From positions 1-41,225 of the forward strand of contig DYZU01000172.1 of assembly GCA_022735835.1 (NCBI GenBank): DNA of 41,225 bases, in the 5' to 3' direction. Made by a program: the position numbers and the translations under genes. Numbering within the stretch: the stretch's first letter is position 1; each line of letters opens with the position of its first letter. Below are positions 12,592 to 14,228 of the stretch, in pieces. Origin of the DNA: Thermincola sp. (GTDB taxonomy: Bacteria > Bacillota > Thermincolia > Thermincolales > UBA2595). Under the pieces are notes generated by a model that was given only the letters and a program-made list of their open reading frames with translations, was not told the DNA's origin and did not search any database.

Positions 12592-12795
12592 TCAGCCGAA
12601 CCTGGTGGTAGCCCCGCAGCTTAAGTCACAGGAGCTTGCCGTTGTGGATTTCACTGCCACCGAAAACGGCGCAAAAACCTGTTTTACACTGGAACTGTTG
12701 CATTTCGGGCATTTTACCTGATCACGCTCGCTGATGGAAGTCCTTACGGTAAATTTGTGGTCACATGATTTGCATTTGAAATCGTATGCCGGCAT
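12592..12795 (-). CDS. FmdB-family zinc ribbon protein
   Basis: MPAYDFKCKSCDHKFTVRTSISERDQVKCPKCNSSSVKQVF; GGAGGT ribosome-binding site just upstream favours this internal start over the longer ORF. Confidence 0.85.
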   Translation of the reverse strand: MPAYDFKCKSCDHKFTVRTSISERDQVKCPKCNSSSVKQVFAPFSVAVKSTTASSCDLSCGATTRFG

Positions 12796-12856
12796 AATAT
12801 CACCTCCATAATAACTTCTCCGGTTGTGCAAATTATATAAAACTATTGGCCACAAG

Positions 12857-12966
12857 TCAACTTGCAAACGATGAGTTTTTCAGCCGGTCTATCTCATCTT
12901 CAATCCGTTCCATCTCGTCAATCATCTCGGGTTTTACGGAATGGGCAGGCCACCTTTTCCATACAT
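12857..12966 (-). pseudogene. Frameshifted small ORF (MYGKGGLPIP / VKPEMIDEMERIEDEIDRLKNSSFAS)
   Basis: Strong ribosome-binding site (AAAGGGGTGG) before ATG at 12966; stop after 10 codons; coherent charged-helix coding in an adjacent frame to the TGA at 12859..12857. Confidence 0.35.
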
Positions 12967-12983
12967 TTCCACCCCTTTAGGTT

Positions 12984-13175
12984 TTATACCATCTTAATGG
13001 CCTGATTGGGACAATAGTTAAGGCATTGGCCGCAACCCTGGCAATACGAGTTGACAAAATACGGTTCATTATTGTCTTCACGTTCTATAGCGTTGGCCGG
13101 GCACACCCTTTTGGCCGGGCAAAATGGTGATTTGTCACACCTTGCAGGGTCAATGACAGCTCTTTGATCCATCAT
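12984..13175 (-). CDS. 4Fe-4S ferredoxin-like protein
   Basis: CDKSPFCPAKRVCPANAI and CQGCGQCLNYCPNQAIKMV. Confidence 0.88.
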   Translation of the reverse strand: MMDQRAVIDPARCDKSPFCPAKRVCPANAIEREDNNEPYFVNSYCQGCGQCLNYCPNQAIKMV

Positions 13176-13204: not shown

Positions 13205-13221
13205 ATACCCCTATGGGGTAT
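13205..13221. promoter_or_regulatory. CsoR/CstR-type operator palindrome
   Basis: ATACCCC-TAT-GGGGTAT, overlapping or just downstream of the predicted +1. Confidence 0.65.
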
Positions 13222-13229
13222 CTATCTCT

Positions 13230-13258
13230 ATTCTAATATTCTATTTTACGATTGTCAA
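13230..13258 (-). promoter_or_regulatory. Sigma-A promoter of the ferredoxin operon
   Basis: Minus-strand TTGACA (13258-13253) - 17 nt - TAGAAT (13235-13230). Confidence 0.7.
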
Positions 13259-13271
13259 CATTAATTTAGCG

Positions 13272-13296
13272 GGGCTGTCCCTAAATGGGACAGCCC
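13272..13296. repeat. Perfect 10-bp inverted repeat after the trxB stop
   Basis: GGGCTGTCCC-TAAAT-GGGACAGCCC; no U-tract on either strand. Confidence 0.7.
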
Positions 13297-13298
13297 TG

Positions 13299-14228
13299 TC
13301 ACTCACTGCTTTCATGCTCAATATACTGCTCTGCCGAGACTGCGGCCACCGCTCCGTCGGCAACCGCCGTTACCACCTGGCGCAGCGGGGTCTGTCTGAC
13401 ATCTCCCGCCGCAAAAACACCGCGGCGTGATGTCTGCATTTTTTCATCGGTGATAATATAACCTCTTTCATCTATTTCCACAAACCCCCGGAACAGTTCG
13501 GTGCTCGGTTCCTTACCGATGTAGACAAACACGCCGTCCACAGCTACAGCCTTTTCCTCGTTTGTCCGGAGGTTCCTGATCTTAACCGCCTCCACATGGT
13601 CTTTTCCCAAAACACCGGTTACAACGGAATCCAGGATGAATTCTATCCTGGGGTGAGCCATGGCCTTTTCCTGCAGTACCTTGGTAGCCCTCAGTTCATT
13701 TCTGCGGTGTATTACGTACACCTTTTCAGCGAACTTGGTAAGAAATATACCTTCCTGGATCGCTGAGTCCCCTCCCCCGACCACAGCTACGGTTTTCCCC
13801 TGGAAGAAGGCCCCGTCACAGGTAGCGCAGTAAGATACCCCGCGCCCCATGAACTCATTTTCTCCCGGTACTTCCAGAGGTTTCGACCGGGCGCCGGTAG
13901 CAATAATTACTGACCTGGCGGTGAAGTCCCCGTCATATGTCTTGATTTCAAAATTCCCGTCAGGTTTTTGGTTTACTGAGAGCACTTCGGTAAATTTTAT
14001 CTCGGTCCCGAATCTTCTGGACTGTTCGTCCATTTTCATCATTAAATCAGGTCCCGGTATGCCTTCCGGGAACCCGGGGTAGTTATCTATCCTGTCGGTA
14101 GTTGCTGCCTGGCCTCCCGGCATACCCCTTTCCAGTATTACTGTTTTGAGGGCAGCCCTGGAGGCATACAACCCGGCCGATAACCCCGCCGGTCCGCCGC
14201 CGATTATGATTACGTCATACATTTCCAT
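13299..14228 (-). CDS. trxB: Thioredoxin-disulfide reductase
   Basis: IIIGGGPAGLSAGLYASRA; SYCATCDGAFF; VVGGGDSAIQEG; GVFAAGDVR. Confidence 0.95.
   Translation of the reverse strand: MEMYDVIIIGGGPAGLSAGLYASRAALKTVILERGMPGGQAATTDRIDNYPGFPEGIPGPDLMMKMDEQSRRFGTEIKFTEVLSVNQKPDGNFEIKTYDGDFTARSVIIATGARSKPLEVPGENEFMGRGVSYCATCDGAFFQGKTVAVVGGGDSAIQEGIFLTKFAEKVYVIHRRNELRATKVLQEKAMAHPRIEFILDSVVTGVLGKDHVEAVKIRNLRTNEEKAVAVDGVFVYIGKEPSTELFRGFVEIDERGYIITDEKMQTSRRGVFAAGDVRQTPLRQVVTAVADGAVAAVSAEQYIEHESSE

Follow-up and report, generated by a model that had tools for sequence, protein, structure and literature searches.

A probable CsoR-family operator on a Thermincola ferredoxin promoter and a candidate dispersed Fe-S regulon under a trxA-linked repressor

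A perfect palindrome on a ferredoxin promoter of Thermincola sp. is very probably the operator recognised by a CsoR-family repressor whose gene lies next to trxA in another part of the genome. The repressor is probably a CstR-like thiol (sulfane-sulfur) regulator that acts in trans on an unusual regulon, dispersed and centred on Fe-S proteins; that it senses sulfane sulfur or a closely related thiol signal is, with slightly more reserve, the reading we favour. The operator, its position on promoters, its recurrence as a regulon in several genomes, autoregulation, the sensor residues and the distinction from copper operators can be read from the sequences themselves. These were the window (the whole stretch of 41,225 nt analysed, contig C152), its source genome (G000; 1.96 Mb, 218 contigs, 75% complete) and relatives, whose genes were called from open reading frames and Shine-Dalgarno sequences with a family search of selected proteins (labels in G, C and L denote genomes, contigs and loci). 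The whole-genome work consisted of pattern and family searches, with the reversed operator pattern as control.

On the minus strand of the window, a TTGACA-N17-TAGAAT promoter (11/12 in a promoter scan of the window) is followed by the palindrome ATACCCCATAGGGGTAT (Table 1). This geometry, described in an earlier sequence-only reading of the same DNA, was confirmed, with a gene for a 63-aa ferredoxin downstream. The window has a single exact match. At up to three mismatches there are six matches against 1.94 expected, which is near chance, so that the exact operator alone stands out; in 60 window-lengths of Markov-1 sequence simulated from the window, nothing matched at up to one mismatch. CsoR-RcnR sites contain stretches of at least four G or C (PMC10318464), and the window site fits the CsoR-family type (a pseudo-palindrome with G/C runs and A/T flanks, placed on a promoter). 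The operator class proposed earlier is also borne out by the matching site on the promoter of the genome's own CsoR-family gene.

The surroundings of this promoter are conserved in part. In six of the seven genomes with the window-type ferredoxin, trxB lies directly upstream of the ferredoxin promoter, and the trxB-ferredoxin order of the window recurs in G002, G004, G005, G007 and G008. The earlier proposal of a three-gene operon (ferredoxin, small ORF and FmdB-like zinc ribbon) is doubtful: the ferredoxin and FmdB frames are real, but no usable in-frame start codon was found for the small ORF in the window, a promoter-like site precedes FmdB, and FmdB adjoins the ferredoxin in its own genome and, among the relatives examined, only in G002. 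Co-transcription of ferredoxin and FmdB is possible. The small-ORF frame is homologous to a protein with a PAHS motif and carries RWPAHSVKPEMIDEMERIEDEIDRL; homologues stand directly after the ferredoxin in G005, G007 and G008 and under the operator in G009 and G011. This RWPAHSVKP-like protein (window 12857-12975; L202, L203, L204, L111, L251) is conserved, recurs beside operator-controlled ferredoxins and has no Pfam match.

Table 1. Features around the window operator and operator sites in the source genome
Feature	Location	Strand	Remarks
-35 element TTGACA	window 13253..13258	-	pattern scan
-10 element TAGAAT, spacer 17	window 13230..13235	-	pattern scan
Operator ATACCCC-N3-GGGGTAT, perfect palindrome	window 13205..13221	.	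8 nt past the -10, about at the transcription start
Ferredoxin, 63 aa, Fer4 / LdpA Fe-S domain, C-x5-C-x5-C-P first cluster motif	window 12984..13175	-	first gene past the operator
Small 'RWPAHSVKP' protein frame, remnant or frameshifted	window 12857..12975 (about)	-	homology; without in-frame start codon
Promoter-like site TTGACT-N17-TATAAT	window 12832..12860	-	11/12; directly upstream of FmdB
FmdB-family zinc-ribbon protein, 67 aa	window 12592..12795	-	TIGR02605 59.3 bits, cut-off 31.3; PF09723
Thioredoxin reductase-like gene (trxB)	window 13299..14228	-	directly upstream of the ferredoxin promoter; assigned by sequence reading
Site 1: window ferredoxin	C152
Site: second ferredoxin, 67 aa	C126
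Two sites: module of Tat-signal HmcB/HybA-like Fe-S protein, cytochrome b, MobA, FdhD	C15
Site: FmdE	C76
Site: HesB-like protein with in-frame TGA	C76
Site: Lon	C29		weaker promoter

A scan of the whole genome for the operator, which the earlier reading had suggested as a check, found seven sites at up to one mismatch, whereas the reversed control pattern had no match; a chance palindrome was rejected on these counts. Each of the seven stands a short way before a correctly oriented gene, and the first of the two on C15 (C15:286) fills the -35/-10 spacer. The pattern ATACCC-N5-GGGTAW, with stricter half-sites and a free centre, also picks up the promoter of the single CsoR-family gene in the genome and brings the operator copies to about eight. 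The ferredoxin promoter, once described as that of an orphan operon, is therefore better seen as one of a conserved regulon, with the operator before every ferredoxin homologue examined. Among the targets, the HesB/IscA-like gene on C76 (L019:4972-5262) has an in-frame TGA (GFG-U-GG). HesB-like selenoproteins are a known family (PMC1794560), a tRNA-Sec is present in the source genome, and the C76 gene is likely a selenoprotein in which the TGA is read as selenocysteine; HesB-like genes stand under the operator in most relatives of the order. In G000 and G005 the operator separates the 67-aa ferredoxin from a DUF6951 gene that points the other way (L020:6639-6995 on C126; L120, L228), and the operator also lies beside DUF6951 in G002. 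An operator-like site occurs upstream of lon in three genomes (G000, L018:5446 on C29; G001 and G003; L117, L159), at a greater distance from the start codon (about 140 nt).

The same arrangement extends to relatives. Each of the 11 ferredoxin homologues retrieved from them, which fall into two paralogous types, is directly preceded by the operator at 0-1 mismatch; a contig search with the ferredoxin alignment found only three loci (relatives Thermincola ferriacetica BM5_bin.18 and HGW-Firmicutes-14). Promoters were scored for five orthologues; these and the window ferredoxin share TTGACA-N17-TANAAT and a gap of 7-10 nt to the operator, and in nearly all of 39 promoters, a set chosen by hand from among the sites, the operator lies 4-12 nt past the -10. 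Repeated targets in the order are a third ferredoxin type, the Fe-S/cytochrome b module (often with double sites), HesB-like genes, FmdE, an SBF-family permease, a GlcD/CCG-type FAD/Fe-S oxidase, HD-GYP proteins, YeeE/YedE pairs (YeeE pairs in G002, G005 and G008), a YgaP-TM protein, DUF1638 and MFS. In other orders or families of the phylum the operator stands before trxB or trxB-trxA (G011, G012, G018, G025). Further targets in G025 are trxB-FmdB, FmdE, the Fe-S module and GlcD, and in G012 an FmdB-ferredoxin, a rhodanese and a CoADR-like (CoA-disulfide-reductase-like)/rhodanese/TusA/DsrE fusion; a search for rhodanese, TusA or SQR genes under the operator in the source genome found none. 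In G018 the only CsoR found is of the C-Y-C kind, in the order tcdA-csoR-...-rarA; the operator matches exactly before trxB-trxA and with one mismatch before a CcdA/TlpA-like pair. The G012 fusion (L254:2128-4575) is an 816-aa pyridine nucleotide-disulfide reductase/rhodanese/TusA/DsrE protein behind an operator and TTGACA. G003 has 21 near-perfect sites (L152-L169), many of them off promoters and in repeated contexts, which look like a repeat family containing the motif; G003 was left out of the count support for this reason.

A family search found no CsoR-family gene in the window, as had been stated before, and a single one in the source genome (DUF156, PF02583; C80:2727-2963, E 3.6e-25, above cut-off), although at the completeness given above a second may be missing. 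The repressor postulated in trans, a postulate tied to the presence of the family in the genome, is thus borne out as a gene, with an operator-matching site on its own promoter. The gene encodes 93 aa and lies between tcdA and trxA, and the order tcdA-csoR-trxA-rarA is found on C80 and in relatives. Its promoter carries ATACCC-N5-GGGTAA; all ten trxA-linked csoR promoters have TTGACA/TATAAT followed by this site or a close variant. When aligned to solved structures, ten of ten orthologues have the sensor residues C, H(+24), Y(+25) and C(+29), that is, where C-H-C, C-H-H and C-H-E sensors have His they have Tyr, with a His one residue earlier. In the C80 repressor (numbered from GTG, L001:1480) the sensing cysteines are Cys35 and Cys64, and Tyr60 occupies the place where Cu, Ni and formaldehyde sensors have His. 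It therefore has neither the C-H-C ligand set of Cu(I)-CsoR nor that of RcnR (C-H-H) or FrmR (C-H-E), showing Tyr and Cys where these have His at +25 and His or Glu at +29; NCBIfam RcnR/FrmR matches fall far under cut-off. The neighbours of the C80 gene are tcdA, trxA and rarA, not copA/copZ. In the tree, the trxA-linked clade (support 99/99) is separate from Cu-type paralogues; CstR (7MQ1) falls elsewhere, on a very long branch in a short alignment that makes its placement impossible. Against the thiol-sensing reading, more distant trxA-linked CsoRs (G011, G012, G046) keep the His, and some of the sulfur targets, among them the rhodanese and the CoADR-like/TusA/DsrE fusion of G012, belong to such genomes.

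Binding, repression and inducer are what we infer from these features. The C80 repressor would sit over the transcription start and block initiation, and would shut down its own gene through the degenerate copy ATACCC-N5-GGGTAA. As a CstR-type thiol sensor (Cys35 and Cys64, with Tyr60 replacing the ligand His), it would be released when persulfide, polysulfide or disulfide stress modifies or cross-links its cysteines, and release would turn on the ferredoxins, the HesB-like selenoprotein, FmdE, the HmcB/HybA-like module with MobA/FdhD, and thioredoxin. The signal is read as thiol or sulfane-sulfur stress because of the sulfur and thiol targets, both within the order (YeeE/YedE pairs, YgaP-TM) and in other orders (trxB, trxB-trxA, rhodanese, the CoADR-like/TusA/DsrE fusion and the CcdA/TlpA-like pair). 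A possible but rather doubtful alternative retains the same two cysteines in a thiol/disulfide-redox, selenium or arsenic sensor, whose signal would be something other than sulfane sulfur (selenite-derived species, As(III) or disulfide stress). In its favour are the linkage to trxA and trxB, the tRNA-Sec of the source genome and the HesB-like selenoprotein, which most genomes of the order have under the operator. The YeeE/YedE proteins score with selenium-YedE models below cut-off, and the SBF permeases score with ACR3 but far below its cut-off (65 vs 283 bits). Seven of the ten orthologues have a third Cys at +31, which also speaks for such sensors, but it is not conserved in G003, G004 and G009, and sulfane sulfur is indicated by the G012 fusion of rhodanese, TusA and DsrE.

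The thiol-sensing reading can be set beside two known regulators. CstR (Staphylococcus, PDB 7MQ1/7MQ2; YrkD of Bacillus licheniformis; CsoR-like sulfurtransferase repressor) senses sulfane sulfur with two cysteines through di- and trisulfide bridges (PMC9918477, PMC9774590). By sequence, the C80 repressor shares with it the CsoR family, two conserved sensing cysteines with no ligand His (N in 7MQ1, Y in the C80 repressor), a palindromic operator with C/G runs and, in some genomes, links to rhodanese/TusA/DsrE/YeeE genes (PMC9774590, PMC9918477). It differs from CstR in that its targets are scattered and centred on ferredoxins, HesB-Sec, FmdE and the Fe-S/cytochrome b module, its gene lies beside trxA rather than cst/sqr genes, it has a Tyr and an adjacent His at the ligand position, and the tree, in which CstR sits on a very long branch, does not group its clade with CstR. 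The second comparison is with a CsoR-like repressor of Thermus thermophilus HB8, TTHA1953, which relies on cysteines, governs a dispersed sulfur regulon and uses a motif unlike that of the CsoR in its genome (PMC10318464). Likenesses are cysteine/redox-controlled binding (predicted here), a regulon remote from the regulator gene, sulfur and electron-transfer targets and coexistence with a Cu-CsoR on a different operator, whereas the TTHA1953 motif differs (probe TACTATACCTTGGTATGGTA), its targets are sox genes and it belongs to another phylum (PMC10318464). A literature search on CsoR with Thermincola, or on FmdB with CsoR or persulfide, found nothing pertinent.

Copper control requires separate consideration, and Fe-S proteins are a known target of copper. 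The Cu(I)-CsoRs (PDB 4M1P, 4ADZ, 2HH7) belong to the same family, 4M1P being the best PDB match of the C80 repressor (2.8e-16), and use a similar operator class in many Bacillota. Under control by copper (or another metal), the operator would serve a CsoR that responds to Cu(I), and Fe-S and ferredoxin genes would be induced because copper destroys Fe-S clusters. In support of this account, ATACCC...GGGTAT flanks csoR-copA outside the order but in the same phylum (G030, G017, G022 and others), so the operator class alone cannot name the ligand. Within the order, however, most complete relatives have a second, Cu-type CsoR (C-H-C), mostly beside copA/copZ, with CCACCCCC-N-GGGGGTGG or a variant of it as operator; these paralogues form a separate clade (support 100/100). 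In the source genome CCACCCCC-N-GGGGGTGG is absent at up to one mismatch, and no copA was found under its ATACCC sites. With two regulators on different sites in the order, the window site is assigned to the trxA-linked kind, and Cu-CsoR control of it was rejected on the different operator and ligand set. Since the ligand His is Tyr in all ten orthologues and Cu-type paralogues use another operator, Cu, Ni/Co and formaldehyde, all listed as candidate ligands in the earlier reading, are disfavoured, and the copper regulon as a whole is quite unlikely.

The known CsoR-family repressors respond to metals, formaldehyde or persulfide and have mostly local targets. If a CstR-like thiol sensor governs a dispersed regulon of Fe-S electron carriers and a selenoprotein, it would illustrate the response of strict anaerobes to sulfur or thiol stress, here in an anaerobic group that has been little studied and with conserved iron-sulfur, selenium and sulfur-handling genes; testable roles would then follow for the uncharacterised FmdB, FmdE, HesB-Sec, DUF6951, DUF1638 and 'PAHS' proteins. 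More tentatively, in Thermincola-type anaerobes and related orders the trxA-linked C-(H)Y-C CsoRs might constitute a distinct, undescribed class of thiol sensors that ties the sulfane-sulfur/thioredoxin-redox state to small ferredoxins, HesB-like selenoprotein, FmdB/FmdE and Fe-S/cytochrome b modules. If so, the orphan families FmdB, FmdE, the 'PAHS' small protein and the odd-spaced ferredoxins would share a physiological role. One bacterial order with two CsoR-family operators kept apart by sequence is also a useful case of specificity.

It is scarcely credible that the palindrome acts as a 5' UTR RNA hairpin instead of a protein site: a simple scan flags it as terminator-like, with a weak T tail, but in orthologues it starts 7-10 nt past the -10, about at the transcription start, its outer ATACCC/GGGTAT letters are fixed while inner changes break pairing (e.g. 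ATACCCA...GGGGTAT) with no compensatory change, and one copy lies within a -35/-10 spacer, and an RNA terminator or attenuator was rejected on the fixed outer letters and the position at the start site. A different inverted repeat, GGGCTGTCCC-TAAA-TGGGACAGCCC, strong and located between trxB and the ferredoxin promoter (window 13268-13300), is probably the end of the trxB transcript.
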